Part shown: positions 6,812 to 48,716 of the stretch, in pieces
How the letters are laid out: every line of letters begins with the position of its first letter
Numbering within the stretch: the stretch's first letter is position 1
Origin: Hamadaea tsunoensis DSM 44101
GTDB lineage: Bacteria > Actinomycetota > Actinomycetes > Mycobacteriales > Micromonosporaceae
Length of the DNA stretch: 64,000 nucleotides
Reading direction: 5' to 3'
NCBI RefSeq assembly: GCF_000428945.1
Contig: NZ_AUAX01000002.1
Span: 434,001 to 498,000, forward strand
The notes under the pieces: generated by a model
Told to the model about the DNA's origin: nothing
What the model saw: the letters and a program-made list of their open reading frames with translations, nothing else
The model's database searches: none
Position numbers and translations under genes: made by a program

Positions 6812-6851
6812 CCAGCCAACCCTCCGCGATTTAGATCATGAGGTCAGCATC

Positions 6852-7787: not shown

Positions 7788-7797
7788 GGGGGAGCAC

Positions 7798-9693: not shown

Positions 9694-10548
9694 TCAGATG
9701 CCGGGCTCTTCGTAGGTCGGGAGCCCGTATGCCAGGGCGACGGGGTTCCACGCGTTGACGAACCGCTGCTTCGTCCTCGTGGCCGTCTTCGACGCGGCCA
9801 TTCCCTGCTGGTAGTTGGAGTCGTGGCCGCAGCCCGACGCCTGGACGTGCTCGCCCCAGCGGACGAAGGCCAGGTCCGCCTCCCGGGACGAGTTCAGTGC
9901 GCTGATCAGGGTGCCGCGCAGCGAAGGGCCGCTGGGAAGGGCCGACACGTCGAGTCCGTTCAGCGCCGCGACCTGACCCGCCCGGCCGCTCGCGACCGTC
10001 CGCAGGGACTGGGTCGCCCCGTACGCGTCGTGGCACGCGCCCAGGTCGTCCAGCGCGGCGAACAGCGCCTGGCGGCTGCGCCCGGACCAGCGGATGATGC
10101 CGTCGACCGTGGCCGCCTGATCGCGCGCGCCGGTGGCGACCGGGGCCGTGCGGGCGCTGCCCGTGGTGTGCAGTTCGATGGTCGCGGTGCTGCCCGGGGC
10201 GACCGTGATGGCCAGCCCGTTGCCGTCGCTGACGATGTACACGGTGCCTTCGACGTGCTCGATGCCGATCCCGGAGGACCCGCTGACGGCGAAGTTCGTG
10301 CCGACGCCGTACCCGGCGGCGTTGGTGTTGCTCACGATGATCGTGGGCTGGCCGGCCGCCTCGTCCGGCGAGAGGATCTTCTTGAGGTAGTCCGCCCCGA
10401 GGGACACGATGACCTCCTCGCCGATCTTCAGCAGTATGGTGCCCGCCTCCCGCGCGGCGGCCGCACAGCCCGATGCGAGGAGCGCCACGGACATCAGCGT
10501 GGCGAGCAGAGCGGTCAGGGAATTCTGCGAAAGGAGCCGGGGTGTCAT
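9694..10548 (-). CDS. Putative lipoprotein of unknown function
   Basis: About 284 residues. The N-terminus is a lipoprotein signal with hydrophobic core LLATLMSVALLASGC, so Cys near residue 27 would be lipidated. Then comes a helix (KIGEEVIVSLGADYLKKIL), a beta-rich domain with Gly/Thr/Val repeats, and a C-terminal Trp/Cys-containing region (NAWNPVALAYGLPTYEEPG). I do not recognise the family. ATG 10548 is chosen because the signal peptide begins directly there; GTG 10554 is an alternative. It has its own upstream region of 287 bp to the marR gene, in which I see no other feature beyond a small GC hairpin at 10811-10824. Confidence 0.7.
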   Translation of the reverse strand: MTPRLLSQNSLTALLATLMSVALLASGCAAAAREAGTILLKIGEEVIVSLGADYLKKILSPDEAAGQPTIIVSNTNAAGYGVGTNFAVSGSSGIGIEHVEGTVYIVSDGNGLAITVAPGSTATIELHTTGSARTAPVATGARDQAATVDGIIRWSGRSRQALFAALDDLGACHDAYGATQSLRTVASGRAGQVAALNGLDVSALPSGPSLRGTLISALNSSREADLAFVRWGEHVQASGCGHDSNYQQGMAASKTATRTKQRFVNAWNPVALAYGLPTYEEPGI

Positions 10549-10835
10549 GGTCACCGCACCGTTCACGCCGCGATCGGCAGCGACTCGGGGAATGCTGTCC
10601 GGCCGAGCGTAGGAACGCCCTCGCACCCCGACAAGCAGCGCCGGCGCGGTTCAGACCGATGTCCGCGGCTCTCACCGGACCGTCGGATCGCGGCCGGGTT
10701 CATCCGAAACGCGGCCCGCGGCGCGCCTGACCGCGCGCTCCGCCCGGCGTCCCGGCGGACCTGCCGGCCATGACGGCCGACTTCCGGACACCCTCTTGCC
10801 TCAGGCGGCCCGCCCGGTCGGGCGAGACCTCTCGC

Positions 10836-11421: not shown

Positions 11422-13005
11422 TCAGCCGGTCGCGACGGGCAGTTCGGCCAGCACGCCGGACAGCAGTTCGGCCACCAGCGCCCGCACGGCCGCGGGGTCG
11501 GCCGCGCCGCCGTAGACGTAGAAGTCCGGCCGCACGAGCACCGCGCGTACGCCATGTTCGGCGAAGAACGCGGTGTAGACCCCGTCGGTGTCCGCGACCT
11601 CGCCGTCGCCGGCCGGGCTGTCGGCGGGCAGGACGGTGACGACCTGGCCGCCGACCGGATCGAGGGCCGACCGGTCCACCGGCGCGTCCGGCGTCGTCAG
11701 CAGCACGAATCCCCGCCCCGCGATCTCGTCGAACGTCCCCGTACGCGAGCCCCGGCCGACGTTGCCCTGCGGCATGAGCAGTCCCGCCGGTGCGATCGGC
11801 GTACCGGCGGGGGCATGCAGCAGGCCGGTCTGCAGCGGATGCACGGGCGAACGCTGCTGGGCGGCCGCCGCCACCGGACGCTGCCGCGCCGCGATCATCA
11901 CCGTGTCCCGGTCGGCCGCCGCCCGCGGGTCGGTCTGGCAGATCACCTTGCCGAGGTTGACCGACATGCTCAGCGCGTGGCGTACGTGCTGGCGGCGCTC
12001 GGTCACGTAGCCGTCCAGCAGCGCCTCCCCGGCGACGCCCCGCAGCAGGAGGTCGAGCCGCCAGGCCAGGCTCGCCGCGTCCCGCAGCCCCGAACACATG
12101 CCCTGACCGGCGAAGGGCGGCATCACGTGCGCCGCGTCCCCGGCCAGCAGCAGGCGGCCGGAACGCCACTCGTTCGCGTACCGGGCGGTGAAGCTGTAGA
12201 CGTGGAAGCGTTCCAGCGTCGCGTGGTCCGGGTCCACATCGAACAGTGCGAGCAGCTGCCACGCCGCCTCGGCGCTGTAGAGGTCCTCGACGCTCTCCCC
12301 GTCGACGCGCATGAACTCCCACCGGCGGTGGCCGGGGCCGGCGGACACGGCGGTGCGCGGCCGGGCCGGGTCGCAGACCTGGAGGTTGTTGGGGCGGAAC
12401 GGCACCGGCTCGGCCAGGGCGACGTCGCAGATCAACCAGTCGTGCGAGAAGCCCAGGTCCGTGAGGGACGTGCCGATCCGCTCACGCACGAAGCTGTTCG
12501 CGCCGTCGCACCCGACCACCCAGCGCGCCGTCCAGGTGCGACGCTCGCCGTCGACCGCCGCCGCGACGACTGTGACGCCGTCCACCCGCCCGGCCAGGTC
12601 GGAGTGGTCGGTCAGCTCCACCACCTCGAAGCCGCGCATCACCTCCACCGTCGGCAGCGCGGCGCCGCGCTCGATGAGCGCCGCCTCCAGCGCGGGCTGA
12701 TACATCGACGTCGAGTCCGGCCACAGGCACCGGCCGACCTCGTTCACGTCGATCTCCAGCAGCTTGTCCCCCGCCGCGTTCACGAAGGTGTAGTCGTGCG
12801 ACGGCTCACCGATCTCACCGATGATGCCCGCGACGCCCGCCGACGCGAGGATCCGCGCGCCCTCCGTGTCGAACGCCACCGCGCGCGGCATCGGGTAGGG
12901 CCGGGGCCAGCGCTCGACGACGCGTACCCGCCAGCCCTGCTGGCCCAGCAGGACGGCCAGCGTCTGCCCCACCGGCCCGTAGCCCACGATCAGCACGTCG
13001 TCCAT
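11422..13005 (-). CDS. FAD-dependent aromatic monooxygenase (MhpA/Rif-Orf19-like)
   Basis: 527 residues of the class A flavoprotein hydroxylases. It has the GxGxxG motif in GYGPVGQTLAVLLGQQG (residues 8-24), the DG motif near GCDGANSFVR, and the GD motif RLLLAGDAAHVMPPFAGQG near residue 290, followed by a thioredoxin-like C-terminal domain. Relatives hydroxylate phenolic rings; the rifamycin homologue acts on the benzenic ring of a tetraketide-stage intermediate. It begins two bases after the PKS3 stop, so it is translationally coupled to the PKS operon and is the best tailoring-enzyme candidate. Regiochemistry cannot be predicted from sequence alone. Confidence 0.9.
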   Translation of the reverse strand: MDDVLIVGYGPVGQTLAVLLGQQGWRVRVVERWPRPYPMPRAVAFDTEGARILASAGVAGIIGEIGEPSHDYTFVNAAGDKLLEIDVNEVGRCLWPDSTSMYQPALEAALIERGAALPTVEVMRGFEVVELTDHSDLAGRVDGVTVVAAAVDGERRTWTARWVVGCDGANSFVRERIGTSLTDLGFSHDWLICDVALAEPVPFRPNNLQVCDPARPRTAVSAGPGHRRWEFMRVDGESVEDLYSAEAAWQLLALFDVDPDHATLERFHVYSFTARYANEWRSGRLLLAGDAAHVMPPFAGQGMCSGLRDAASLAWRLDLLLRGVAGEALLDGYVTERRQHVRHALSMSVNLGKVICQTDPRAAADRDTVMIAARQRPVAAAAQQRSPVHPLQTGLLHAPAGTPIAPAGLLMPQGNVGRGSRTGTFDEIAGRGFVLLTTPDAPVDRSALDPVGGQVVTVLPADSPAGDGEVADTDGVYTAFFAEHGVRAVLVRPDFYVYGGAADPAAVRALVAELLSGVLAELPVATG

Positions 13006-13007
13006 GG

Positions 13008-16000
13008 TCAGGCCCCTTCCGGCGTACGCAGCTGGCCGTCGAGGTAGTCCGCGACGAGCCCGGGCGTCGGGTGGTCGAACAGCAGCATCGGCGTCAGCAC
13101 GAGACCGGTCGCGGCCATCAGCCGGTTACGCAGCTCGACGGCGGTCAGCGAGTTGAAGCCGACCTCGAAGAACGGGCTGTCCGCCGCCAGCGGCGCGACG
13201 ATCGGCACCTCCAGCGGGGTCTTGCCCGCCTCGGCGACCACGAGGTCCACCAGGTACGCCCGCCGCTCCGGTCCGGCCAGCGCGGACAGCTCGGCGACGA
13301 GGGCGAGCCGGACGGCGTCGTTGCCCTGCGGCGGTTCCGGTACGCCGTCCGGCGCCGCGGCCGGGGACGGGATCTCCGGCGGGGTCTGCTCGGTCACGGT
13401 GGCCTCCCTGCTGAGCCAGTAGCGCTGGCGTTGGAACGGATAGGTGGGCAGGTCGATGGTGTCGCCGCGGGGCACGGTGAGGGCCGGCCCGATGACGGCC
13501 AGCCGGGCGATCGCGGTCAGGGCGTCGGGCAGCAGCGGGATCGCGGTCACGCCTTCGGCGACGGTCTGCTGCGCCAGCGCGGTCAGTACGCCGCCCGGAC
13601 CGGCCTCGACGAACGTGGTGACGCCGTCGGCGTACATGCGCTGGACGGCGGCCGCGAAGCGGACCGGTTCGCGTACCTGGCGGATCCAGTAGCGCGGATC
13701 GGTCACCGGGCCGGCCGCGTCGTCCTGACCGGTGGTCGCGATCGGGATCCGCGGCGGGTGGAACGCGGCGGCCTCGACGACGGCGGCGTACTCGGCGAGC
13801 ATCGGTTCCATCAGCGGGGAGTGGAACGCGTGGCTCACGGTGAGGGCCTTGGTCTTCCAGCCCCGCTCCTCGGCCGCCCGCGCGATGCCGGCCAGGGCCG
13901 TGCTGTCCCCGGACACGACCACCGAACTCGGGGCGTTGACGGCCGCCAGGCTCACCCGGTCCTCGTGGCCGGCGAGCAGCGGCGCGATGTCCACTTCGGA
14001 CGCGCGTACCGCCAGCATGCCGCCGCCCTCGGGCAACGCCTGCATGAGGCGGCCGCGGGCGGCGACGACGCGTACGGCGTCGTCGAGCGACCAGACTCCG
14101 GCCACGTACGCGGCGGTCAGCTCGCCGATCGAGTGGCCGGCCAGGACGTCGGGTTCGATCCCCCAGCTCGCCAGGAACCGGAAGGCCGCCGCCTCGACGG
14201 CGAACAGCGCGGCCTGTGTGTAGACGGTCCGGTCCAGCCAGCCGGCCGCGTCCGACCCGGGCTCGGCGAAGACCACGTCGGCCACCCGGTGGGGGACGTG
14301 CCCGGCCTCCACGAGGTGCTCGTCCAGCCCCCGCGTGACCTCGTCGAACGCCTCCCGGTACGCGGAGAACGCCGCGTACAGGTCGCGGCCCATTCCGATC
14401 CGCTGGGCGCCCTGCCCCGTGAACAGGACGCCGAGCCGCCCGGCGGACACCCGGCCGGAGATCGCCGGGCCGTCGGTGTTCTCCAGTGCCGCAACGGGTT
14501 CGTCGACGGAGGCACCGCCGACCGGCACCGCGACCCGGTGTTCCAGCAGCGCGCGGGAGGTCGCCAGCGACCAGCCGACGTCCACCGGACGCGCCGCGCC
14601 CGACCGCAGCCGCGCGGCGAGCCCGGCGGCCTGTTCCCGCACCGCCGCCGCGGACCGCCCGGACAGCACCCACACCGTCGGACCCTCGCCGTCGGGCGCG
14701 GCCGGGGTCTCTTGAGTGGGCGCCTCCTCGACGATGACGTGGGCGTTCGTGCCGCTCACCCCGAACGCCGACACCGCTCCCCGGCGCGGCCGGCCCTCGA
14801 CGGCCGGCCAGTTCCGGGCGGAGCGCAGCAGCGCCACCGAGCCCGCTTCCCAGTCCACCTTGGACGACGGCTCGTCGATGTGCAGCGTCCGCGGCATGAC
14901 CTCGTTGCGCAGCGCCAGGACCACCTTCATGACACCCGCGACGCCCGCGGCCGCCTGCGCGTGGCCGATGTTCGACTTCAGCGTCCCCAGCCAGAGCGGA
15001 TCGTCCGGCGACCGGTCGCGGCCGTAGGTCGCCAGCAGCGCCTGGGCCTCGATCGGGTCGCCGAGCGTCGTGCCGGTGCCGTGCCCCTCGACGAGGTCCA
15101 CGTCGGCCGGGGCCAGCCCGGCCGAGGCGAGCGCCCGGCGGATGACCCGCTGCTGGGCCGGGCCGTTCGGCGCGGTGAGCCCGTTCGAGGCGCCGTCGGA
15201 GTTCACCGCGGAACCGCGGAGCACGGCCAGCACCGGATGCCCGTTGCGCCGCGCGTCGGAGAGCCGTTCCAGCAGCAGGACACCCGCTCCCTCGGACCAG
15301 ATGGTCCCGTCGGCGCCGTCCGCGTACGCCTTGATGCGGCCGTCCCGGGCCAGGGCCCGCTGCCGCGAGAAGTCGATGAACGAGTTCGGGGTCGCCATGA
15401 CGGTCACCCCGCCCGCCAGGGCCAGGGCGCACTCCCCCTGCCGCAGCGCCTGCATGGCGAGGTGGATGGTGACCAGCGACGACGAGCACGCGGTGTCGAC
15501 GGTCAGCACCGGACCGGTGAGCCCGAGCGCGTACGCGACCCGGCCGGACAGGACCGCCCCGGAGTTGCCCATGCTCAGGTACGCGTCCACGCCGTCCGGC
15601 AGCCGCGTGACGCCGGTCGCGTAGTCGTGGTACATCTGCCCGGCGAACACGCCGACTTCCTTGCCCCGCAGAGAAACGGGGTCGATCCGGGCCCGTTCGG
15701 CCGCCTCCCAGCAGATCTCCAGCAGCAGCCGCTGCTGCGGATCCATCGCCAGCGCCTCGCGGTCGGAGATGGCGAAGAAGCCGGCGTCGAACAGGGCCGC
15801 GTCGTGCAGGAAGCCGCCGTGGCGTACGTAGGTCTTGTTGAGCGCGTCGGGTTCGGTGGAGTGGATGGCGTCGACGTCCCAGCCCCGGTCGGCCGGGAAC
15901 TCGCTGATGCCGTCGACCCCGTCGGCGACGAGCCGCCACAGGTCGTCCGGCGTCCGCACCCCGCCGGGCAGCCGGCAGGCCATCGAGACGATCGCGATCG

Positions 16001-16154
16001 GCTCGGCGGCACTCGGCTCAGCCGCACCGGGCTCAGCGGCACCGGTTTCGGCGGCACCGGTTTCGGCGGCATCGGATCGGGCCCGGCGCAGCTGCTCGTT
16101 CTCCAGGAGCGCCGCGCGCAGCGCCTCCACCAGCCGCTCATCGGTGGCGGTCAT
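13008..16154 (-). CDS. Type I PKS, module 4: KS-AT-ACP, no reduction and no thioesterase
   Basis: 1,048 residues. An N-terminal docking helix (about 1-30) and an Ala/Glu/Pro-rich linker precede the KS from about residue 50. Its active site is intact: TACSSSL near 222, EGHGTGT and NIGHAQ. The AT has GHSIGE near 675 and HAFH, which predicts malonyl-CoA. A short linker leads directly to an ACP with GFNSL near residue 1000, so the usual Asp before the phosphopantetheine Ser is Asn. There is no KR, DH, ER or TE, and the protein ends soon after the ACP without a docking domain. It is therefore the likely last extender, leaving a beta-ketoacyl-ACP. Its ATG overlaps the PKS2 stop (ATGA). Confidence 0.95.
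16000..16070 (-). repeat. 15-bp in-frame tandem repeat in the PKS3 N-terminal linker
   Basis: About five units encode AAE(T/P)(G/S) between the docking helix and the KS. The units differ by silent and conservative changes, which suggests an older slippage expansion under coding constraint. It lengthens the flexible linker after the docking element. Confidence 0.8.
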
Positions 16155-19100
16155 GCGTCTTCTCCTTCCGGGGTGCCGGCGCCCAGCGCCAGGGCGATCA
16201 GGTCGTCCGCGGACATCCCCGCGATCGCGGACCGGGGTTGCTCTCCGGCCCGCCCGGCCGCCGAAGGCGACGGCCCCGAACCGGTCGGCCCCGAGGCCGG
16301 AGACGGCTCCGGCAGCTCCAGAGTGGACAGCAGGTGGTCGGCGAGCTCCCCCGGCGTCGGATGGTCGAAGACCAGGGTGGCCGGCAGGCGTACGCCGGTC
16401 TGGGTGGAGAGCCGGTTGCGCAGCTCGACCGCGGACAGCGAGTCGAACCCGGCGTCCTTGAACGCCTGGTCCGGCTCGACCCGGCGGCCGCCCGCGTGGC
16501 CGAGGACCGCGGCGGCGAGGGCGCCCACCAGGTCCACGACGTGGCGGCGGCGTTGCCGGGGCGGCAGCGGGCCGAGGGTCTGCGCGAGCGAAGCCGGCGT
16601 CGCGGCGGCATTCGCGGCCGGTGCGCGCCGAGCCCCGCGGGCGAGGGTACGCAGCAGCGGCGGCACACCCTCGCCGGCCAGGGCCGACAGCTCGAACTTG
16701 GCCGGCACCAGCACCGCCGCGTCCGTACGCACGGCCGCGTCGAACAGCGCCAGCCCCTCGTCCGGCGTCAGCGGCAGCAGCCCCGACCGGGCCATCCGTT
16801 TGCGGTCCACATCGGACAGCGCGTCGGTCAGCGTACTGTCGGCGGCCCAGACGCCCCACGCCAGCGAGACGGCCGGCAGCCCGGCGGCCCGGCGGCGTAC
16901 GGCGGTCGCGTCGAGCTCCGCGTTGGCGCTCGCGTACGCGGCCTGACCGGCGCTGCCCACGATCCCGGCCAGCGAGGAGTAGAGGACGAACAGGTCGAGT
17001 TCCCGGTCGCGGGTCAGCTCGTCCAGGTGGCGGGCGGCGTCGGACTTCGGCCGGGCGACCGCCGCGAGCCGCTGCGCGGTCAGCGCGTCGAACACCCCGT
17101 CGTCGGTCACGCCCGCCGTGTGGATCACCGCCCGCAGCGGCCGGTCGAGCCCGTCGAGGAGGCGGACCACGGCGTCGCGGTCGCCCACGTCGCAGGCCGC
17201 GTAGCTCGTCTGCGCCAGCCCCTCCAGCTCAGGATCGGGCTTCGGGTTGCGGCTGACCAGGGTCAGGTGCCGGACGCCGTACTTCTCGACCAGGTGTCGC
17301 GCCACGAGACGGCCGAGGCTGCCGCTGCCGCCGGTGATCAGGACCGTGCCGTCCGGGTCGATCTTCACGTCGCCGGTCGGGGTGGCGCGGACCAGGCGGG
17401 GGGTCAGCAGCGTGTGGTCGCGGATGCGTACCTCGGGCTCGCCGGTGGCCAGGGCGCGATCCACGAGGGGGTCGCCCGCCGCCGCGTCCACCAGCGTGAT
17501 GCGCCCCGGATTCTCCGTCTGCGCCGACCGCGCCAACCCCAGCACTGCGGCGTCCGTGCTGATCACTGCTACTGGTTCGCCGCCGGCCAGCGCCTTTTTC
17601 AGTCCGCTCAAGGCCTTCGCCGGGTCGCTCTCCACGATCTTCGTGTACGCGGAGTCAGCCGCTCCGATCTCACCGGTGAGTGGCACCCATTCGATCGCGT
17701 ACAGCGATTCGGTTCCGAGGTCGCCGAGGGGTCGGACGGTGAGGTCGGCGAGACTGGCGACGGGTGCGCCGAAGGTGTCCGACACGGCGATGCTGGTACC
17801 GGTCCCGTGGACGTGCACCCGGGCCTCGGTGACGCCGCGCTGGTGGACCTCCAGCCCGCTCCAGGCGAACGGGATCTGGACGCTGTTGCTCTGCCCGGCG
17901 GGTGTGCGCAGGCTGGCTGCCTGAAGCACGGCGTCGAGCAGGGTCGGGTGGATGACCGATCGCTGGGCGTCGTCCGGGGGTTCCGAGGCGAGGGCCACTT
18001 CGGCGTACAGGTCGTCGGCGAGGCGCCACGCTCGGCGTAGTCCTTGGAAGGTCGGGCCGTAGGCGACCCCGCCGCGGTCGTAGAAGCCGTCGAGGTCGAC
18101 CGGTTGCGCCCCGGCGGGCGGCCACTGCGCCGGACCGGCCGACGGCGTGGCGTCGCCCTGTACCAGCCGGCCGATCGCGTGGACGTTCCACCCTGCCTCG
18201 GTTCGCGCGTGGATCGTGACGCTGCGACGCCCCTCCTCCTCGGCGCCGACCGCCACCTGTACGCGTACGCCGGCCGGGGGCAGGACCAGCGGCCGTTCGA
18301 CGACGAGTTCCTCGACGGCGGGGGTGCCCGCCTGGGCTCCGGTCCACAGGGCCAGTTCGGCCAGCGCGGCACCCGGCACGACGACCGTACCGGCGATCGT
18401 GTGGTCCGCCAGCCACGGCCGCGTACGCGTGTCCCAGTGCACGGTCGCGACCAGCCCGCCGTCGGCCAGTTCGACCACGTCGGGATCGTCCTCGGCGGCG
18501 TCGTCGGCGCGCAGCCAGAACCGTTCGCGCTGGAACGCGTACACGGGCAGGTCGACGAGGTCGCCCCGGGGTACGCGTACGTCCACACCGGACACGGCCA
18601 GCCGGGCGATCGCGGCCAGCGCGCCGGGCAGCATCGGGACCGCGTACACCGGGGTCGTGTCGGCCTCGGCGATCTGCTGGACGAGCGCGCTCAGCACGCC
18701 GCCCGGACCGGCCTCCAGGAACGTCCGAATGCCTTTGAATCGCATCTGCCGGACGGCGTCCGCGAAACGGACCGGCTGCCGGACGTGCTGAACCCAGTAC
18801 CCGGGATCCCGCACATCCCCGCCGGCGGCAGGTCCGCTGGCGACGATCGGGATCCGGGGCTCCGAGAAGGCCGCCGAGCGGACGATCCGCTCGAACTCGG
18901 CCAGCATCGGCTCCATCAGCGGCGAGTGGAACGCGTGGCTCACGGTGAGCGGCCGCGTCCGCCAGCCCTGTTCCCCGGCCCGCTTCCCGATCTCCGCCAG
19001 CGCGCCCAGGTCACCCGAGACGACCACGGAGTCCGGCGCGTTGACCGCCGCCAGCCCGGCGACGTCCTCGTACCCGGCGAGGAGGGGCAGGACGTCGCTT

Positions 19101-21229
19101 TCGGCGGCGCGTACGGCGAGCATGCCGCCGCCTTCCGGCAACGCCTGCATGAGCCGCCCGCGGGCCGCCACGATCCGGGCGGCGTCGTCCAGCGACCAGA
19201 CCCCGGCGGCGTACGCGGCGGTCAGCTCGCCGATGGAGTGCCCGGCCAGCAGGTCCGGCTTCACCCCGAACGACTCGACGAGCCGGAACAGGGCCGCCTC
19301 GACCGCGAACAGCGCCGCCTGCGTGTAGACCGTGCGGTCCAGCCACGCGGCCGCCTCGGTGCCCGGCTCGGCGAAGACGACGTCGGCCACCCGGTACGGC
19401 ACGTGTCCCGCCTCGACGAGGTGCTCGTCCAGCGCCCGCGTGAGCGTGTCGAACGCCTCCCGGTACACGGGGAAGTCGTCGTACAGGTCCCGGCCCATGC
19501 CGACGCGCTGCGAACCCTGGCCGGTGAACACCACACCCAGCCGCCCGCCGACGACTCTTCCGGCGACGGCCTGCGCGTGTTCCCGCCCGGCGGCGAGCGC
19601 GTCCAGCGCCTCGACCGCCCCGGTGGGCGTACCCGCGAGGACGGCGGCGCGATGATCGAAGCGCGCGCGGGACGCGGACAGCGACCACCCGAGGTCGACG
19701 GGGTCGAGGGGGGTCGTGCGGAGGTGGCGTGCGAGGGCCGCGGCCTGACCGCGGACGGCGGCCGGCGACTTCCCGCCGAGCAGCCACAGCGTGGGGCCCG
19801 CCCCGACCTCGGCCGGCTGCTCTTCGACGGGCACCGTCTCGAAGACGGGCGCTTCCTCGACGATGACGTGGGCGTTCGTGCCGCTGACGCCGAACGACGA
19901 GACCCCCGCGCGGCGCGGCCGGCCCTCGGCCCGCGGCCAGGGGCGCGGCGCCGTCAGCAGTGAGACCGCGCCCGACTCCCACTCCACTTTGGAGGACGGG
20001 GTCTCGGCGTGCAGCGTCCGTGGCATGGTCTCGTGGCGCAGCGACAGGACCAGCTTGATGATCCCGGCCACGCCCGCCGCCGCCTGGGCGTGGCCGATGT
20101 TCGACTTGAGCGAGCCGAGCCACACCGGTTCGCTGTCGGAACGGTCGCGGCCGTAGGTGGCCAGCAGCGCCTGGGCCTCGATCGGGTCGCCGAGCGTCGT
20201 ACCGGTCCCGTGCCCCTCCACAAGGTCCACATCGGACACCGACAGCCCCGCGGACTTCAACGCGCTCAGGATGACGCGCTGCTGCGCCGGCCCGTTCGGC
20301 GCGGTGAGGCCGTTCGACGCGCCGTCCTGGTTGACCGCCGACCCGCGCAGCACCGCCAGCACCGGATGCCCCAGCCGTCGCGCGTCCGAGAGCTTCTCCA
20401 GCAGCACCAGGCCCGCCCCTTCGGACCAGCCCGTGCCGTCGGCCCCGTCGGCGTACGCCTTGCAGCGGCCGTCCGGCGCCAGTCCCCGCTGCCGGGAGAA
20501 CTCGACGAAGATCGAGGGCAGGGCCATCACCGTCACGCCACCGGCAAGAGCTAGGGAGCACTCCCCCGCCCGCAGCGAGCGCATCGCGAGGTGGACCGCC
20601 ACGAGCGACGACGAGCACGCCGTCTCGACGGTGACGGCCGGCCCCTCCAACCCCAGCGCGTACGCGACGCGGCCGGTGGTGGCACTGCCGGAATCGCCGA
20701 TGCCCAGATTCCCTTCGACCTCCCGCGGTACGCGTCCCCGCGGCGCGTAGTCGTGGTACATGACGCCGGCGAACACCCCGGTGTCGGAGCCGCGCAGCGA
20801 GGCCGGGTCGAGGCGGGCGCGTTCGGCCGTCTCCCAGGCCAGTTCGAGCAGCAGCCGCTGCTGGGGATTCATCGCGAGGGCCTCGCGCGGCGCGATGCCG
20901 AACAGGTCGGCGTCGAACTGGGCCGCGTCGTGCAGGAATCCGCCGTGGCGTACGTAGGTCTTGCCGGCGGCGTCCGGATCGGGATCGTAGAGGCCCTCGG
21001 TGTCCCAGCCCCGGTCCGACGGGAACTCCGTGATCGCGTCGCGGCCCTCGTCGAGCAGCCGCCACAGGTCGTCCGGCGTACTCACCCCGCCCGGCAGCCG
21101 GCAGGCCATCGAGACGATCGCGATCGGCTCGGCCGCCGCCGCCTCCAGCTGCTCCAGCCGGTCGTTGGCCTGGCGCAGTTCGACGAGTACGCGCTTGAGA
21201 TAGTCGCGCATCCGGTCGTCGTCGGCCAT
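16151..21229 (-). CDS. Type I PKS, module 3: KS-AT-DH-KR-ACP
   Basis: 1,692 residues starting at an ATG with AGGAGGAG upstream, 49 bp after the PKS1 stop. An N-terminal coiled-coil docking segment (about 1-30) precedes the KS, with TACSSSL near residue 206, EGHGTGT and NIGHAQ. The AT has GHSIGE near 667 and HAFH, predicting malonyl. The DH has an intact [10 protein letters not shown] near 942 plus YGPTFQGL and LLDAVLQA. The KR has GGSGSLG near 1295, the second Asp of the B-type motif in GVTDDGV, and the catalytic Tyr near 1431. The ACP has GFDSL near 1597. The C-terminal tail ([12 protein letters not shown]) looks like a short docking element. The module should install a double bond. Confidence 0.95.
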
Positions 21230-21279
21230 GCTCTCCTCCTGGGTCTTGGCTGCTTCGCTCTGGGATCCGGACTGCGTGC

Positions 21280-24200: not shown

Positions 24201-27200
24201 CGCGGACGTGCCGCACCCAGTACGCCGGATCGGTGAGCTCGCCCTCGGCGGCGAGGCGGCCGGTGACGTTGGAGACGACGGGGATGCTCGGTTCCGCATA
24301 GGACAGTCGCGAGGCGACGGCCGCGAACTCGTCGAGCATCGGTTCCATCAGCGGCGAGTGGAAGGCGTGGCTGACCGACAGGCGGCGGGTCTTCCAGCCG
24401 CGCTCCTCGGCGGCCGCGGCGATCCGGTCGAGGGCGTCGACCGCGCCGGAGACGACCACGGCCGAGGGGCCGTTGACCGCGGCGATGTCCACGGCTTCGC
24501 TGCCCACCACTGCCGCGCTGTCGGCGGGAAGGAGTTGCTGGACGTCCGCTTCGGTCGCGCGTACGGCGAGCATGCCGCCGCCGTCGGGAAGCGCCTGCAT
24601 CAGCCGGCCCCGGGCGGCGACGATCCGGGCCGCGTCGGCGAGATTCCAGACCCCCGCCACGTACGCGGCCGTCAGCTCGCCGATCGAGTGCCCGGCCAGC
24701 ACGTCGGGCCGCACGCCCCAGGAGGCGGCGAGCCGGAACAGGGCCGCCTCGACGGCGAACAGCGCGGCCTGGGTGTAGACCGTCCGGTCGAGCCAGGACG
24801 CCGGTTCCGAGCCCGGCTCGGCGAAGATCACGTCGGCCAGCCGGTGCGGGACGTGGCCCGCCGCGACCAGGTGCTCGTCCAGCGCGGCCGTCACCTCGTC
24901 GAACGCCGCCGCGAACACCGGGTACGCCTCGTACAGCCCGGCTCCCATCCCGACGCGTTGCGCCCCTTGCCCGGTGAAGAGCACGGCGACCTGTCCGTCC
25001 ACAGGGGACCCCGTGACGACCGCACCGCCGGCGGCACTGCCGGCCGCGAACCCCCGCAGAGTGTCGGCGAGGGTCTCGGGCGTGCCCACGACGACCAGCC
25101 GCTCGTCCAGCCGGGCCCGCCGCTCCGCCAGCGTGTACGCGACGTCGACCGGTTCCGGCCGCGCCGCCGCGACATGGTCGGCCAGCCGCGCGGCCTGGAC
25201 CTGAAGCGCGGCGGCCGACCGCGCGGACACCGGCCACGCGACAACGGGAACGGCACCGGCGGGAGGGGCACTCACGGGAAGCGCTTCCGCGGGCTGCGTA
25301 CCGGGCGCCTCCTCGATGATGATGTGGGCGTTCGTCCCGCTCACCCCGAACGACGACACTCCCGCCCGGCGCGGCCGGTCCGACGCCGGCCACGGCTGCG
25401 CCTCCTGGAGCAGCGACACCGCCCCGGACGACCAGTCCACGTGCGGCGTGGGCTCGCCGGCGTACAGGGTGGCGGGCAGGACGCCGTGGCGCAGCGCCAG
25501 GATCATCTTGATCATTCCGGCGACGCCGGCCGCGCCCTGCGTGTGGCCGATGTTCGACTTGACCGAGCCGAGCCACAGCGGCGACTGCTCCGGCCGGTCC
25601 TGGCCGTAGGTGGCCAGCAGCGCCTGCGCCTCGATCGGGTCGCCGAGCGCCGTGCCGGTGCCGTGCGCCTCGACGGCGTCGACCTCGGCCGGGTGGAGAC
25701 CCGCCGCAGCCAGCGCCTGGCGGATGACACGCTGCTGCGACGGGCCGTTCGGGGCGGTCAGGCCGTTCGACGCGCCGTCCTGGTTGACCGCGGAACCCCG
25801 GACGACGGCGAGCACCGGCAGGCCGCGCCGCTCGGCCTCGGACAGCCGGGTCAGCAGCAGGACGCCGACCCCCTCGGCCCAGGCCGTGCCGTCGGCCCCG
25901 GCCGCGAACGCCTTGCACAGGCCGTCGGGGGCGAGCCCGCGCTGCCGGGCGAACTCGATGAAGTTGTCGGGCGTGGCCATCACGGTCACACCGCCCGCGA
26001 GCGCCATCGTGCACTCGCCCCGGCGCAGCGCCTGGGCGGCCAGGTGTACCGCCACCAGCGACGACGAGCACGCCGTGTCGACCGTGACGGCCGGACCTTC
26101 CAGACCCAGCGCGTACGCGACGCGGCCGGAGGCGACGCTGCCGGAGATCCCGGTCAGCCGGTAGCCCTCCAGTTCCGCCGAGCCGCCGCCGGCCGACCGC
26201 AGCCGCAGCGCGTAGTCGTGGTTGATCACTCCCGAGTAGACGCCGACGTTCTGCCCGGCCAGCGTCTGCGGGTTGACCCCGGCCCGCTCGAAGACCTCCC
26301 ACGACACCTCCAGCAGCAGCCGCTGCTGCGGATCCATGGCCAGCGCCTCGCGGGGCGAGATGCCGAAGAACCCGGCGTCGAAGGCGGCCGCGTCGAGGAA
26401 CGCGCCCCGGCGGGCGTACGTGGTGCCGGGGGTGTCCGGGTCGGGGTCGAAGAGGGTGTCGAGGTTCCAGCCGCGGTCGGCCGGGAAGTCGGTCATCGCG
26501 TCGCGTCCCTCGGCGAGCAGCCGCCAGAGGTCCTCAGGGTCGTCGATGCCGTGCGGGAAGGCGACGCCGCCGGGGAACCGGCACGCCAGCGACACGATCG
26601 CGATCGGCTCCTCGGACTCGCCCGTCTGAGCCGCCGCATCCGCCGGGGAGTCCGGCGCGGACGCCGCGCCCCCGCCCATCGCGGTCAGCAGGTACTGCGC
26701 CAGGACGGCCGGCGTCGGGTAGTCGAACACCAGCGTGGCGGGCAGCTTGAGACCCGTCTTCGCCAACAGCCGGTTGCGCAGTTCCACCGCCGTCAGCGAG
26801 TCGAAGCCCGCCTCCTTGAACGCCCGGTCCGCGGTCACCGCGTCGGTACGCGAATGCCCGAGCACCGTGGCGGCCTCCGCGCGTACCAGATCGAGCAGAG
26901 CGGGCAGCGACGCCGCCGGCTGCGAGCCGAGCGGCTGTGCTCCGCCCGGCTGGGCCGACGCGGACCGGCGGGTGGTGCGCACGAGGCCGCGCAGCAGATG
27001 CGGCACCTCGGCGCGCCCGCGCAGGTCGAGGTCGGCGGCGGTGAGCGCGGCGTCGGGGCCGGTGAACGCGCGGTCGAACCGGGCCAGGCCATCCTCCGTG
27101 GACATCGCCTTGACCCCGTCGCGGCGCGTACGCTCGACGGCCGCCGCGTCCATCCCGGCGGTCATGCCGCTCTTCTGCGCCCACAGACCCCACGCGACGG

Positions 27201-30200
27201 AGGTCGCGGGCAGCCCCTGCGCGTGCCGGATCGTCGCGAGCCCGTCCAGGTACGCGTTGGCCGCCGCGTAGTTGCCCTGTCCCGGATTGCCCAGCACCCC
27301 GGCCGCCGAGGAGAACAGCAGGAAGGCGGCGAGGTCGTGGCCTTCGGTCAGCTCGTGCAGATGCCGCGCGGCGTCGGCCTTGGGCGCCAGCACCTTCGCG
27401 AGCCGCCGCGGGTTGAGCGCGGGAATGGTCGCGTCGTCGACGACGCCGGCGGTGTGCACGACGGCCGTCAGCGGATGCCGGGCGGGAACGGCCGCGATCA
27501 CCGCCGCGAGCGCGTCCCGGTCCCCCGCGTCGACCGCCGCGAACGTCACGGTCCCCGGCTTCTGATGTGTGCCCTCCTGCAGGAGCCCGATCAGCTCGGA
27601 GCGCAGTTCGTCCGCGCCCGGCGCCTGCTCGCCCTGCCGGCTGAGCAGCAGCAGGTGGCGTACGCCGTGCCGCTCGATCAGCCGCCGGGCCACGAGCGCC
27701 CCGAGGGTACCCGTGCCACCGGTGACCAGGACCGTCCCGTCGGGGTCCAACGTCCGCGGAACGGTCAGCACGACCTTGCCGGTGTGCCGCGCCATGCTCA
27801 AGTGGCGCAACGCCTCCGGCGCGCGGCGTACGTCCCAGGTGGACACCTCGGGCGGCTCGATCCCGATCCGGCGCAGCTCCGCCAGCAGCTCGCCGAGCCG
27901 CTCCGGTCCCGCGTCGCGCACGTCGTACGCCCGGTACGCGATCCCGCGCGGCGCCGACTCCGCCGGCCGGATGTCGGTCTTGCCGAGTTCGAGGAACGTC
28001 CCGCCGTCGCGGAGCACGTCGAAGGAGGCGTCGGTCAGCTCGCCCGCGAGCGAGTTCACGACGACGTCCATGCCGCCGCCCGAGGAGCCGCTGTCGGAGG
28101 AGCCGCTACCGGAGGAGGGGCCGCCGAACTTGTCCCGGAATCCCGCGTCCCGCGAGCTGGCGATGTGGTCGTCGTCGAGCCCGAGCTCGCGCAGCTTCGG
28201 CCACTTGGCCGGGCTGGCGGTCGCGTACACCTCGGCGCCGAAGTGGCGGGCCAGGCGGATCAGGGCACTGCCGACACCGCCCGTGCCCGCGTGGACGAGG
28301 ATCTTCTGCCCGGGTGCGATCCCGGCCAGGTCGACCAGCCCGTACAACGCCGTCAGGTACGCGATCGGCACGCCGGCGGCCTGCGCGTACGTCCAGCCGG
28401 CCGGGATCGGCGCGACGAGCCGGGCGTCGGTGACGGCCACCGGGCCGAAGGCCCCGAAGTCGCCGATCATCCCGTAGACGCGGTCGCCCTTCTTCAGCCC
28501 CTTCACGCCCTTGCCGGTCGCGAGCACGACCCCGGCCGCCTCGCCGCCCAGACCGGTCTGCCCCGGCACCATGCCCAGGCTCACCAGCACGTCGCGGAAG
28601 TTCACGCCGGCCGCGCGTACGGCGATGGCGACCTGGCCGGGAGCAGGCGGCGTGTCGGCCACCGGCACCAGCCGCAGATCGCTCAGGCTGGTCGCCCCCT
28701 CGGGCTGATCGAGCATCCACCGCGGCTGCGCCGGCGGCACGAGCTCGGCGGGTGTGCGGGCCAGGCGCGGCGCGTACGCCACCCCGTTGCGCAGGGCCAG
28801 CTGCGGCTCGTCGGTCGCGGCGACCCGCGCCGCCAGCGCCGCGGCCACCGGGCCGTCCGCGTCCAGCAGCGTCACCGCGCCGGGATTCTCCGACTGCGCC
28901 GACCGGACCAGGCCCCACGCCGCGGCCGCCGCCGGGTCGCGTACCTCGGCGCCGCTGTGCACGGCCACCGCGCCCCGCGTCACCACGACCAGCGGCTCGT
29001 CGCTCTCCCGCTGCAGTTCCGCCAGCACGCCGGGCAGATCTTCCAGCACGTGTACGCGTACCGGCTGCTCGCCGCCGCCAGTTCCCGGGTCCGCGAGGTC
29101 CGCCGGTGTCCACTCCAGACGGTAGAGCCCGTCGGTCCCGGCCGCCTGCGCCCTGTCACCGGCGGCCGCCCTGAGCTTCAGGGACGCCACCGAGAAGACG
29201 GGACCGCCCGCCGGGTCGGTCGCGTGCACGGAGATCTCACTGCCGAGGTCGCCGCCGGTGCCGCCGATCGACTCCGCCCGGACCCGCAGCGTGGTCGCGC
29301 CGGTCGCGTACAGGCTGATTCCGGTGAAGGCGAACGGCATCCGGGGCTGTTCGTCCTGGGGCGCGCCCGCCTTGGTCGCGTGCAGCGCCGCGTCGAGGAG
29401 CGCCGGATGCACCAGGTACGCCCCGGCCGAGTTCCCCTCGGGCAGCCCGATCTCGGCGAACAGCTCGGACCCCCGCCGCCACGCCGCCCGCAGCCCCTGG
29501 AAGGCGGGCCCGTACGCGTACCCGGCGGCGGCCTGGCTCTCGTAGAAGTCGGTGACGTCGACCGGCTCGGCGTCCGCCGGTGGCCACGAGGCGCCGGTCT
29601 CAACTGGGGCGGCCGCCGGCTCGGTCTGCTCCTTGGTCAGGTTGCCGCTCGCGTGCCGGACCCATGCGCCGCCATCGGCCTGCGCGTGGATCGCGAACGT
29701 GCCCTCCGCCGTCGCGGTCACCCTGATCCGGCGTGGCTCGCTCAGCACCAGCGGCGCCTCCACGATCAGCTCGCCCACGTTCGGTACGCCGACCGCCTCG
29801 CCCGCCCGCAACGCCAGCTCGACGAGGGCCGCGCCCGGCACGACGACGTCCCCGCCGATCCCGTGGTCCGCCAGCCAGCGATACGCGTAACGCGACAGCA
29901 CCCCCGTGAGCACGACCCCGCCGTCCGGCAGCTCCACCGGTACGCCCACCAGCGGCTCGTCCGACGGCAGCAGCCAGAACCGGCGGCGCTGGAACGCGTA
30001 CACGGGCAGGTCGACAGGGTTGCCGGCGGGCAGGGTGACGTCCACTCCGGACACCGCGAGCCGCGCGATCGCGGCCAGCGCGTCGGGCAGCATCGGAATC
30101 GCGTTCGCGTCCTCGGCCGTCTGCGGTACGAGGGCCGTCAGCACACCGCCCGGCCCGGCCTCGAGGAACGTCCGCACGCCCTTGTCCCGCATGTGCCGGA

Positions 30201-33200
30201 CGGCGTCCGCGAACCGGACGGGCTGCCGCACGTGCTCGACCCAGTACGCCGGGTCGGTGATCTCGCCGGCCGCCGCGACCGGGATCAGCGGCGCGTGGAA
30301 CGCGACGGAACGGACGGCGAGCTCGAACTCCGCGAGCATCGGCTCCATCAGCGGCGAGTGGAACGCATGGCTCACGGCGAGATCGCGTGTCTTCCATCCG
30401 CGGGCCTCGGCGAGCTTGCCGATCTCCGCCAGCGCTTCCAGTTCACCCGAGACGACCACCGAGTTCGGTGCGTTGACCGCCGCGATCCCCGCCCGGTCGG
30501 CGAATCCGGTGATGAGCGGCAGGACCTCGGCCTCGGACGCGCGTACGGCCAGCATGCCGCCGCCGGCCGGCAGCGCCTGCATCAGCCGCCCGCGCGCCGC
30601 CACGATCCGGGCGGCGTCGTCGAGCGACCAGACCCCGGCGACGTGGGCGGCGGTCAGCTCGCCGATCGAGTGCCCCGCCAGCAGGTCCGGCTTCACTCCG
30701 AACGACTCGGCGAGCCGGTACAGCGCGGTCTCGACGGCGAACAGCGCCGCCTGCGTATACACGGTCCGGTCGAGCCACTCCGCCGCCGCCGAACCCGGCT
30801 CGGCGAACACGACGTCGGCGACCCGGTGCGGGACGTGCCCCGCGAACACGAGATGCTCGTCCAGCGCTGCGGCCACGGCGTCGAACGCCGCCCGGTAGAC
30901 CGGAAACTCGGCTCGCAGTTCGCGGCCCATGCCGAGCCGCTGCGAGCCCTGCCCGGTGAACACGACGCCCAGCCGCCCCGGTACGACCTTTCCGACGACG
31001 GCCTGCGGGTGCTCCCGCCCGGCGGCGAGCGCTGCCAGAGCCTCGTCCGCCCCGTAACGCGTATTACTGAAAATGAGCGCGGCACGATGCTCCAGCGAGG
31101 CGCGGGTCCCGGCCAGCGACGAGCCGATGTCCACGACGCCGGCGGGCGGCAGATCGCGCGCGAGCGCGGCGGCCTGGCCCTGGACGGCGGCGGCCGAACG
31201 GCCGGACAGCAGCCACAGCGTGGGCTGGTCCGCCGCCGCCGCGGCGGGCGGCGCGGACAGCGCGGCCGGCGCTTCTTCCAGGATGAGGTGGGCGTTCGTC
31301 CCGCTGACGCCGAAGGAGGAGATCCCCGCGCGGCGGGGCCGCTCGGGCGACGACGGCCAGTCGCGGGCCGACGTCAGCAGCGAGACCGCGCCGGACGTCC
31401 AGTCCACATGCGACGAGGGTTCCGTGACGTGCAGGGTCTTCGGCATCTCCCGGTGGCGCAGCGACAGGATCAGCTTGATGACCCCGGCGACCCCGGCGGC
31501 GGCCTGCGCGTGCCCGATGTTGGACTTCAGCGAGCCCAGCCACAGCGGCGAGTCCGGGGACCGCCCCTGCCCGTAGGTGGCCAGCAGCGCCGACGCCTCG
31601 ATCGGGTCGCCCAGGGTGGTGCCGGTGCCGTGCCCCTCGACCAGGTCCACATCGGACGTCGTCAGGCCGGCCGACGCCAGGGCGCGGCGGATCACCCGCT
31701 GCTGCGCAGGCCCGCTCGGCGCCGTCAGGCCGTTGGACGCGCCGTCCTGGTTGATGGCCGAGCCCCGGACGACCGCGAGCACGGGGTGGCCGTTGCGGCG
31801 CGCGTCGGACAGCCGTTCCAGCAGGAGCAGGCCGGCCCCCTCGGACCAGCCGGTCCCGTCGGCCGCGTCCGAGTACGCCTTGCACCGGCCGTCCGGCGCG
31901 AGCCCGCGCTGCCGGGAGAACTCGATGAACGAGGTCGGCTGCGACATCACGGCGACCCCGCCGGCCAGCGCGAGCGAGCATTCGCCCTGCCGCAGCGACT
32001 GAGCCGCCAGGTGGATCGCGACCAGCGACGAGGAGCACGCGGTGTCGACGGTGACGGCCGGCCCTTCGAGCCCGAACGCGTACGCGACCCGGCCCGAGAC
32101 CACGCTGCCGGACGAGCCGATGCCGATGTAGCCTTCGGTCCCCTCCGGTACGCGACCGACACCGGACCCGTAGTCGTGGTACATCACCCCGGCGAACACG
32201 CCCGTGTCGGAACCCTGCAGCGACGTCGGGTCGAGCCCGGCCCGCTCCAGCGTCTCCCAGCCCAGTTCGAGCAGCAGCCGCTGCTGGGGGTCCATGGCCA
32301 GCGCCTCGCGGGGCGAGATGCCGAACAGCTCGTTGTCGAACAGGCCGGCGTCGTGCAGGAAGCCGCCGTGGCGTACATAGGAGGTGCCGTGGGCGGCCGG
32401 ATCGGGATCGTACAGCTCGTCGAGACGCCAGCCCCGGTCGTCGGGGAACTCGCTGACCGCGTCGCGCCCCTCGGCCAGCAGCCGCCACAGTTCGTCCGGT
32501 GTGGACACGTCGCCCGGCAGCCGGCAGGCCATCGCCACGATCGCGATCGGCTCGTCCACCGCCACCCGCGCGGCGTTGTCCGACGCGCGTACCGGGGCGG
32601 CCGCCGGTGCCCCGGTCAGCAGCGCGTGCAGGTGGTCGGCGAGCGCGTTCGGCGTCGGATGGTCGAACGCCACCGTCGCCGGCAGGACCAGCCCGGTCGC
32701 CGCCGCCAGCCGCGTACGCAGGGCGACGGCGTTCTGCGAGGTGAACCCGAGGTCCTTCAGCGCCCGCGCCGGGTCGAGGTCGGCCAGCCCGCTGACCGCG
32801 GCAGCGTGCTCCAGGACCAGGTCGAGCAGGTCGGCCCGGGACACGTCCGGCGCGACGGCCTCGACCCCGGCGGGCACGGTGTCGACCAGCCCCCGCAGCA
32901 GCGGCGGAACGCCGGCGCCGAACGCGGTGACATCGAGCCGGCCGGCGTACAGGACGGGTTCCCCGAGCGCGAGCGCGGCGTCGAACATCGCCATCCGGTC
33001 CCGGTCGCCCAGCGTACCGAGCCCGTCGGCGGCACCGAGCCAGAGCGCGGCCCGGCCACGCCCGCGACGGTCGAGGACGACGGCCTGCGAGCTTGGGTCC
33101 GCGGCGAGCACCACGAACGCCGCGACGTCCGGGAACAGCTCGTCGAGTTCGGCCGCCCGCCCGGCCGTGTCCACGACGGCATCCACGGCTTGCCCGTGCA

Positions 33201-35337
33201 GGTCGGCGAAGGACACCAGGCGGGCGCCCAACTCCTCCGCCAGGGCCGCTGCCGCCGGGTCCTCGGCGCCGCAGGCGCTGGCGAGGAGAACCTCACCGCT
33301 GCGCGCCAGATGCCGGGCGACCGTCGCACCGTCCACTGTGTCCGCCCCGGCGACCAGGGTCAGGCCCCAGGCCGGAACCGCCACATCGATCAGCGCCGCC
33401 ACCCGCTCCAGCCGGGGCACGAGCGCGATCCCACCGCGTACCGCGATCTGCGGCTCGCCGGCCGGCAGATCGGCCGGGACCTCCGCCGGAGCGACGCCGT
33501 CCACCAGCACGACGCCGTCGACCGTACGGGCGGCAGCCCACGCCGCCGCGACACCGGCATCGACGACCTCGGACTCCTCGACAGCGATCCCGCCGACGGC
33601 GGTGACCACCGTCAGACCCCCGTCCTCGGTCACGCCGTCGAACTCGTCCAGCGCGACGACCCGGTCAACCGGCCCGAGCACCCCGAAACGCGTATCACCG
33701 GATGGTGAAACAGGGACCCACGACAAGCGGAAGAGGGCGTCGTAGAAGAACGAGCCGGAGGCCCGCAGGCGAGCGGGAAGATCGAGCAGCACGTGCCTGG
33801 TGATCTTCCCCGAGGCCGTGCGCGGAATCCGGTCGATCTCGTACAGCTCTTCGGGAACCTTGAAAGGAGCGAGCCGTTCGCGACAGGCGGCGAGCAGTGC
33901 CTCGGCGTCGAAGCCGCCTGAGCCGGTGTCCTCGGCGGCCGGCACCAGGAACGCGACCACCACCTCGCCGAGGATGTCGTGCGGCTTGCCGACGACCGCG
34001 ACGTCCGCCACCCCGGGAACCGACCGCAGCACCTCCTCCACCTCGCCGGGGTGGATGTTCTCCCCGCCGCGGATGATCAGCTCCTTGATCCGCCCGGTGA
34101 TGCGGAAGTAGCCCGCCTCGTCGCGCCGCGCGAGATCACCGGTGTGGTACCAGCCGCCGGCCAGCGCGACCACCGTCGCCTCGGGCTGGTTGTGATACCC
34201 GGCCATGACGCTCGGGCCGCGCACCCACACCTCGCCCTCGGCGCCGTCGGCGACGTCCTGCCCCGTCTCGGGATCCACGACGCGTACGCCGAGACCCGGC
34301 ACGGGCAGCCCGCAGCTGCCCTCGACCCGGGCGCCGGTCGGCCAGTTGATCGTGATCGACCCGCACGTCTCCGTGCTCCCGTACGCGTCGAGCAGCGGCG
34401 CCCCGAACGCCTCCTCGAACGACCGCCGCAGGGCCGCCGTGGTGATCGCCCCGCCGACCAGGCACATCCGCAGCGCGGGCGCGGCGAACTCGGTCTCCCG
34501 CGCGGCCTGGACGAGATAGTGGTACATCGTCGGCACGCCGGCGAGGAACGTGGCATCCTCCTCGCGGACCGCGGCGAGAATGTCCTCGGCCGAGAAGCCG
34601 TCGACGATCCGCGCGGTCGCGCCCACGGCGGTGACACCCAGGACGCAGACGATGTGCGCCAGACTGTGGAACAGCGGCAGCGGCCAGACCACCCGGTCGT
34701 CGGCGGACAGCCCGGGAATGGGTACATAGCAGGCGGCCACCGACCACAGGCAGTTGCGCTGCGTGGACAGCACGCCTTTGGGCTTGCCGGTGGTCCCCGA
34801 GGTGTAGAGCATCCAGGCGACATCGTCGAGCCCGAGATCATCGCGCGCGGGCACGGGCGGCTCGGTCGTGGCCAGCCGCTCGAAGTCGAGAGTCCCGTCT
34901 CCTGTCTTCGCGCCCGCCTCCCGCGGCGCCCCACCGACGATCACCAGAGTCAGGTGCGGGCGCTCCGCCGCCAGCGCCCGGAACAACTCCAGATGCGCCT
35001 CGTCCGTCAGCACGAACCGCGCATCGCTGTCGTCCAGCATGTACGCGATCTCGCCCGCGGTCAGCCGCGGATTGATCGGCACCCCGACGCCGCCGGCCCG
35101 GACGATCGCGTGGTAGCTCTCGACCATCTCGACCCGGTTGCCCAGACAGATCGCGGCCCGGTCGCCCGGCTGCAACCGGTGCCCGGCGAGATGCCCCGCC
35201 AGCCGCCGCGTACGCGCCTCCAACTGCGCGTACGTCACAGCCCGGTACGCGTCCCGATAGGCGACCTTGTCGCCGCGTACCCGGGCGTGCTCGACGAGCA
35301 GCTCCGGCAGGGGACGGATCAAATCGGTACGCAGCAC
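21280..35337 (-). CDS. Type I PKS: adenylating loading module, module 1 (KS-AT-DH-ER-KR-ACP), module 2 (KS-AT-DH-KR-ACP)
   Basis: 4,685 residues. Residues about 1-520 are an AMP-forming carboxylate ligase ([11 protein letters not shown] near 175) whose first residues, LRTDLIRPL, resemble the AHBA-loading domains of ansamycin PKSs. Then come a degenerate KR-like spacer (about 540-830) and an ACP with GFTSQNAV near 866. Module 1: KS 927-1355 (Cys near 1101), malonyl AT (GHSIGE near 1558, HAFH), DH ([10 protein letters not shown] near 1824), ER (AGVNFRDVL near 2250, HAGTGGVG), KR (Tyr near 2692) and ACP (GFDSL near 2845). Module 2: KS from 2909, malonyl AT near 3549, DH near 3860, KR near 4275, ACP near 4561. 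A C-terminal docking domain follows. GTG 35337 is chosen for GAAAGGG seven bases upstream. Confidence 0.95.
28079..28128 (-). other. Ser/Gly low-complexity insertion inside the module 1 ER domain
   Basis: Between FRDKFGG and [10 protein letters not shown] the ER carries about 15 extra residues, [14 protein letters not shown] and neighbours. Typical ER domains have only a short GGRG-like turn here. The DNA is an imperfect repeat of GGAGGAGCCGCT on the plus strand, so it probably arose by slippage. The insertion lies in a surface loop of the nucleotide-binding subdomain, so activity may be retained. Confidence 0.8.
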
Positions 35338-45542: not shown

Positions 45543-45552
45543 GGCGTGCAGC

Positions 45553-48697: not shown

Positions 48698-48716
48698 ATC
48701 CGCAACGCTAACACAG

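Follow-up and report, generated by a model that had tools for sequence, protein, structure and literature searches.

Pentaketide ansamycins and the locus in Hamadaea tsunoensis

Pentaketide ansamycins are a described class, in which six published scaffolds (Q1047/cebulactam, catellatolactam, aminoansamycin, microansamycin, juanlimycin, and tetrapetalone) have been sorted by extender unit and a seventh, with the set C3-C2-C3-C3, has been added (PMC13000494). In this work, we analyzed a window of 64,000 nucleotides from Hamadaea tsunoensis DSM 44101 (positions 434001-498000 of contig C2; genome of 9.48 Mb in 68 contigs), of which the stretch 11422-35337 encodes a modular polyketide synthase (PKS) and a monooxygenase. 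We are highly confident that the PKS encoded here forms the core of a pathway to a pentaketide ansamycin of the type AHBA-C2-C2-C2-C2 (AHBA, 3-amino-5-hydroxybenzoate), with release by an amide synthase and with starter genes detached from the core. Positions given without a contig name are those of the window.

The tpm cluster of Streptomyces sp. LR53, which encodes the tropansamycins, resembles this locus in its AHBA starter, its inactive loader region KR0, and its four modules on TpmA-C. It also has an amide synthase (TpmD) and a Nam7-like hydroxylase (TpmE), matching the pair of the window pathway, and its LAL and SARP regulators are a further likeness (PMC13000494). The two systems differ in the extender set, which is C3-C2-C3-C3 in tpm and C2-C2-C2-C2 in the window, where all four acyltransferases (ATs) carry HAFH, so the locus does not share the extender set of the tpm scaffold. 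Furthermore, tpm retains a C7 hydroxyl, as its first dehydratase (DH1) is inactive, whereas module 1 of the window has a dehydratase (DH), an enoylreductase (ER), and a ketoreductase (KR), and the AHBA genes lie inside the tpm cluster but are detached in the window genome (PMC13000494). The rif and cxm clusters are alike in the AHBA loader, the lack of a terminal thioesterase (TE), the NAT-family amide synthase, the orf19-type monooxygenase, and the genes of rifG-N type; chaxamycin, however, contains a naphthalene ring and takes up ten extenders, including seven methylmalonyl units, in contrast to the four malonyl modules found here (PMC4551226).

The assembly line

Three PKS open reading frames (ORFs) on the minus strand and a fourth ORF for the monooxygenase constitute the core of the pathway according to ORF calls and Pfam. 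PKS1 (21280-35337, 4685 aa; delimited by Pfam, motif scan, and start codon) comprises a loader, made up of an adenylation (A) domain, a KR0 region, and an acyl carrier protein (ACP), followed by module 1 with a ketosynthase (KS) and the order KS-AT-DH-ER-KR-ACP (within 26677-32556) and module 2 with KS-AT-DH-KR-ACP (within 21526-26613). PKS2 (16151-21229, 1692 aa) starts with an N-terminal docking helix and holds module 3, again KS-AT-DH-KR-ACP (within 16319-21133), while PKS3 (13008-16154, 1048 aa), whose start overlaps the PKS2 stop, consists of a docking helix and module 4, KS-AT-ACP (within 13029-16007). Pfam and the motif scan thereby reproduced the domain order and count of an initial annotation of the stretch, as well as its reading of all four ATs as malonyl-type.

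The motifs sought are intact throughout: GHSIG and HAFH in all four ATs, TACSSS, E(G/A)HGTGT, and KSNIGH in all four KSs, HxxxGxxxxP in the three DHs, Rossmann and Tyr motifs in the three KRs, and GFxS in the five ACPs. HAFH is the mark of malonyl ATs, and xDD that of B-type KRs. Exactly four KS-AT extension modules follow the loader, as expected of a pentaketide. Since all four KS matches on contig C2 fall within 11422-35337, there are no modular PKS modules elsewhere on this contig.

Release and tailoring

PKS3 ends in an ACP and has no terminal TE domain (Pfam). The initial annotation had stated that TE and amide synthase were both absent; the former is correct for the end of the assembly line, but a discrete thioesterase, presumably of the type II, editing kind, is encoded at 2114-2884 (minus strand; PF00975, 166.7 bits), and its relatives (47-58% identity) sit near ansamycin-type genes. 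The latter does not apply to the pathway as a whole, as a NAT-family gene (C2:431366-432166, 266 aa; PF00797, 143.9 bits) lies 1.8 kb left of the window and approximately 15 kb from PKS3. It is one of two PF00797 genes in the genome, and its residues Cys73-His111-Asp126 are in place, compared with the triad Cys72-His110-Asp125 of the geldanamycin amide synthase (PMC6784220). A NAT-family (RifF-type) amide synthase combined with a missing terminal TE is the ansamycin arrangement. The release step is thus only seemingly absent, because the gene predicted to close the ring sits just outside the window; a reading limited to the window can overlook a release enzyme by less than 2 kb. Pathway genes beyond the window, which the initial annotation had itself named as grounds for its refutation, do include the release enzyme; no further PKS gene was found.

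Without a release domain on PKS3, the synthase could also be a stand-alone system whose beta-keto chain is hydrolyzed and decarboxylated to a methyl ketone, as initially proposed, or cyclizes spontaneously, and a truncated N-acetyl ketone, tropansamycin D, does occur beside the tpm lactams (PMC13000494). However, with an amide synthase and AHBA genes in the genome such a release is not needed, and the counterpart of the amide synthase gene directly follows the last PKS in Catellatospora vulcania and in Kitasatospora mediocidica, where it is a NAT-family relative of 45% identity. In Streptomyces sp. TSRI0107 and S. dysideae, the amide synthase adjoins a LAL gene away from the PKS, as it does here, so the distance of the NAT gene from the PKS need not reflect a recent break. 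We consequently regard a release-less synthase as very improbable and retain ring closure by the amide synthase.

The monooxygenase gene (11422-13005, minus strand; PF01494) scores 621.6 bits against NF004829, for which the cut-off is 390, and its product is of the Rif-Orf19/Nam7/TpmE kind, i.e., an aromatic-ring hydroxylase, in line with the first assignment. Relatives carry this gene near the same PKS.

The loader and the starter supply

The loading A domain of PKS1 (33727-35337, minus strand) is 70-79% identical to four loaders from clusters with an AHBA synthase, which points to an AHBA-type loader and agrees with the ansamycin-type loading proposed at first; its best PDB relatives are acyl/aryl-CoA ligases. 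Approximately 295 aa separate the A domain from the loader ACP (GFTS in the motif scan; 32617-32841), a stretch that the initial annotation had passed over. Here lies a degenerate, KR0-like region (32842-33726) without the Y...N catalytic pair, at a position matching the KR of its relatives. A KR match occurs at this position in 68 of the 75 loaders from named genomes; the region of the window loader is below detection by our local KR model and aligns with the C. vulcania linker in two stretches of 27-29 aa only, with weak E-values. The corresponding loader region of tpm is named KR0 and described as inactive (PMC13000494).

The first annotation had advised looking outside the window for AHBA genes, and an AHBA synthase was indeed found on contig C7. 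A DegT-family search of the genome returned 14 places, five of them strong and none on contig C2. The gene at approximately C7:49446-50597 matches the PDB entries 1b9i (622.6 bits) and 1b9h (620.9 bits), both 3-amino-5-hydroxybenzoic acid synthase, with the next entry at 192.7 bits. It is adjoined by genes for a type II 3-dehydroquinate (DHQ) dehydratase, a Gfo/Idh oxidoreductase, and a HAD phosphatase, the latter two being 55-65% and 65-74% identical to those beside the AHBA synthase in eight clusters. A ROK kinase gene (C7:38973-39866) follows at a distance of about 9 kb and shows 57% identity to the kinase of the Streptomyces sp. APSN-46.1 cluster. The DHQ-synthase-like gene, by its relatives aminodehydroquinate-synthase-like, is located on contig C2 (C2:501883-503007), 32 kb past the PKS; it is 66-72% identical to counterparts in six ansamycin-type clusters and stays below the AroB cut-off (284.8 vs 305). 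In terms of the AHBA genes, J, K, L, M, and N would therefore be on C7, unlinked to the PKS, and G on C2. As the distance to the contig ends is at least 38 kb on C7 (383,907 bases) and at least 62 kb on C2 (565,073 bases), the split is not explained by a simple contig break. Plasmid searches gave only matches under 60% identity. Detached AHBA genes of this kind are relevant to software that draws cluster boundaries.

With regards to the starter, loaders of the rifamycin and geldanamycin type accept related benzoates, and the geldanamycin amide synthase is able to form a lactone as well (PMC6784220), so that a non-AHBA aryl starter, e.g., 3-hydroxybenzoate as in the cuevaenes, could lead to an acid or lactone in a genome whose AHBA genes are unlinked to the PKS. 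Against this stand the genuine AHBA synthase, the fact that PKS1 has the sole AHBA-type loader of the genome (no second one at E <= 1e-100), and the relatives with the same module set, which keep their AHBA synthase near the PKS. An amide synthase of the RifF type would, moreover, be expected to depend on an amine. A cuevaene-type 3-hydroxybenzoate PKS was dropped as a candidate after the AHBA synthase and the amide synthase had turned up, and we consider any non-AHBA starter extremely improbable.

Proposed pathway

From the domains and motifs, the accessory genes, and their grouping in relatives, we infer the starter, the positions of the double bonds, the ring size, the hydroxylation, and any ether closure as follows. 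The loader would activate AHBA supplied by the C7 enzymes (J-N) together with the aminodehydroquinate-synthase-like enzyme (G) from C2. By collinearity, four malonyl extensions would then yield Ar-CH2-CH2-CH=CH-CH=CH-CO-CH2-CO-S-ACP, which in the numbering of PMC13000494 corresponds to C7H2-C8H2-C9H=C10H-C11H=C12H-C13(=O)-C14H2-C15(=O)-S-ACP. The NAT-family amide synthase is predicted to join the end of this chain to the aniline nitrogen; the resulting ansa lactam would be 13-membered, free of methyl branches, and of the formula C15H15NO3 ([M+H]+ 258.1125). Hydroxylation of the ring at C1 by the monooxygenase would afford C15H15NO4 ([M+H]+ 274.1074), and the C1 hydroxyl may next add to the dienone, forming an ether. 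For tpm, it has been proposed that the amide synthase closes the ring before TpmE installs the C1 hydroxyl, which is able to add to C9 (PMC13000494); by analogy, the same order is likely in the window pathway. What seemed a PKS without product release thus becomes a pathway to a small ansamycin whose formula is predicted and can be tested.

Several points weigh against this assignment. The lactam is a prediction, and the A-domain sequence by itself is also compatible with 3-hydroxybenzoate as the starter. The genes J-N lie off the PKS contig, whereas the five named carriers of this module set have the AHBA synthase on a contig with PKS genes (see below). According to the literature, the seven genes rifGHJKLMN are needed and sufficient for AHBA; a RifH-type query found only one class II DAHP (3-deoxy-D-arabino-heptulosonate 7-phosphate) synthase in the genome (contig C49, 64%), which may be the housekeeping enzyme, and no dedicated RifH. 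Likewise, the matches to a RifI-type query were weak throughout, the top one (37%) being at 3873-4616, and the shikimate dehydrogenase at 3855-4697 was dropped as a RifI candidate given its 37% identity to cluster-type RifI. In a tree of 110 loader sequences, the carriers of the all-malonyl set group with the window loader, but the support is modest (0.987 with the loader of genome G328, 0.755 for the C. vulcania node, and none for the next), and the closest loader, that of G328 (78%), comes from a cluster with two methylmalonyl-type modules.

The scattered gene arrangement also allows for a decaying relic, a dispersed pathway that is being lost and no longer productive. A berberine-bridge-type FAD oxidase and an FAD-dependent oxidoreductase at C2:408.7-411.9 kb, 49-72% identical to genes near the clusters of relatives, may belong to the pathway, in which case its genes extend over approximately 94 kb of contig C2 plus C7, with unrelated genes in between. 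In addition, searches of three further genomes from this genus, including one with a completeness of 87%, returned neither the loader (E <= 1e-100) nor the AHBA synthase (E <= 1e-90). On the other hand, the frames of the PKS, monooxygenase, amide synthase, and AHBA synthase are open and the motifs sought are intact. Decay is therefore very improbable in our view.

Relatives with the same module set and the question of novelty

Matches to the loader (E <= 1e-100) were obtained in 76 of 354 genomes and matches to the monooxygenase at the same threshold in 12 of 150 genomes of the family, the own genome included in both counts. During the loader scan of named genomes, 80 of 140 loci were kept, 75 of which had the loader motif, and in 44 of these module 1 lay wholly within the stretch analyzed. 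Eleven of the 44 have a first module of the type HAFH-DH-ER-KR. In seven of them, PKS1 ends with module 1, up to which these loci were compared; in the remaining four, PKS1 continues into a second module, and all four carry the all-malonyl four-module set. Identical all-HAFH sets occur in C. vulcania, Streptomyces sp. TSRI0107, K. mediocidica, Streptomyces sp. APSN-46.1, and S. dysideae, the last of which was added for its place beside the other four in the loader tree; together with the window genome, this makes six. Each of the five named genomes encodes an amide synthase (44-69%), a monooxygenase (58-62%), a DHQ synthase, an AHBA synthase, and RifL- and RifM-like proteins, and the AHBA synthase shares a contig with PKS genes of the set, so the first annotation's statement that no comparable pathway was known no longer holds. 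The detached AHBA genes on C7 are unusual and set the window genome apart among the six. Our simple gene caller masked some genes behind longer ORFs in a wrong frame, as in the case of the amide synthase of C. vulcania and the monooxygenase of K. mediocidica; tblastn recovers them.

C. vulcania NEAU-JM1 allows for a direct comparison, with an identical all-HAFH set and with identities of 69-71% for the amide synthase, 60-62% for the monooxygenase, 75-76% for the loader, 78% for the MFS protein, 78-79% for the HxlR regulator, and 82% for the AHBA synthase. It differs in its gene arrangement: one contig has PKS2-PKS3-amide synthase-monooxygenase in this order, and PKS1 (cut at its end) is on a second one beside the AHBA synthase, RifL-/RifM-like, DHQ dehydratase, and DHQ synthase genes.

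This likeness bears on novelty rather than on the mechanism. There is an even chance that the pathway is as described but its compound already known, be it a catellatolactam, an aminoansamycin, or another all-malonyl pentaketide ansamycin. Catellatolactams A-C, ansamacrolactams from Catellatospora (Liu et al. 2022, cited in PMC13000494), are among the six pentaketide scaffolds, and this genus shares the module set of the window; because of their origin from Catellatospora, they are the leading candidate product type. An all-malonyl pentaketide set was not found in the available parts of five papers (PMC13000494, PMC13302746, PMC9962454, PMC10383492, and PMC11213898). We put forward only tentatively that the locus specifies an eighth, undescribed pentaketide scaffold, namely an all-malonate, methyl-free 13-membered ansa lactam in which C7-C8 is saturated and the dienone conjugated. 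It would be distributed over at least six genomes from several actinomycete genera, and in the window genome the genes for its starter would occupy a separate chromosomal site. Regardless of its novelty, a set of at least six all-malonyl clusters offers a compact system for studying the closure of short chains by amide synthases.

Two relatives deserve a separate mention. The cluster on contig C3 of G328 combines a window-like PKS1 (HAFH-HAFH, with DH-ER-KR in module 1) with PKS2 and PKS3 on the opposite strand, whose ATs carry YASH (methylmalonyl-type). From its sequence, this gives the impression of a natural exchange of entire subunits, and owing to these YASH ATs, the extender set cannot be predicted from the similarity of the loaders. 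In S. dysideae RV15, the PKS frames of the four-module cluster are broken, by either assembly error or decay.

Neighboring genes and further observations

The window opens within a regulator gene of the LuxR type (LAL-like; C-terminal part at 3-1049, plus strand; PF00196), which starts outside the window, adjoins the amide synthase gene, and has relatives of 52-65% identity in ansamycin clusters. Left of the window are thus the start of this gene, the NAT-family gene, and genes for an HxlR-family regulator and an MFS protein. A calcineurin-like phosphoesterase is encoded at 2948-3844 (plus strand; PF00149), and its relatives in C. vulcania (61%), APSN-46.1 (62%), and the genomes G145 (66%) and G062 (58%) lie close to genes of ansamycin type; AHBA pathways already own a HAD phosphatase. 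Between these genes and the monooxygenase, genes for a shikimate dehydrogenase, a HIBADH-like dehydrogenase, a pectate lyase, and a MarR regulator have no evident link to the pathway. Four ORFs inside the scattered cluster (6338-8313 and 9694-10626) have no Pfam match; three of them (all but 6338-6811) were also scanned against NCBIfam, again with no match.

Two other PKS regions of the genome were considered as parts of the pathway. For the one on contig C16, the analysis covered the AHBA-type loader, of which the genome contains no second one at the threshold given above; that on contig C34 was rejected as it combines a nonribosomal peptide synthetase (NRPS) with PKS modules that mostly lack a detected AT, with no AHBA-type loader there. 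The latter NRPS-PKS stretch (C34:25000-64999) is an observation in its own right, since its modules (KS-DH-KR-ACP and KS-KR-ACP), mostly without an AT by our local models, are possibly of the trans-AT type. Finally, at 44652-49555 of the window, the gene of a MerR regulator with a B12-binding domain adjoins amine-oxidase-family and polyprenyl synthetase genes, an arrangement suggestive of a light-regulated carotenoid island.

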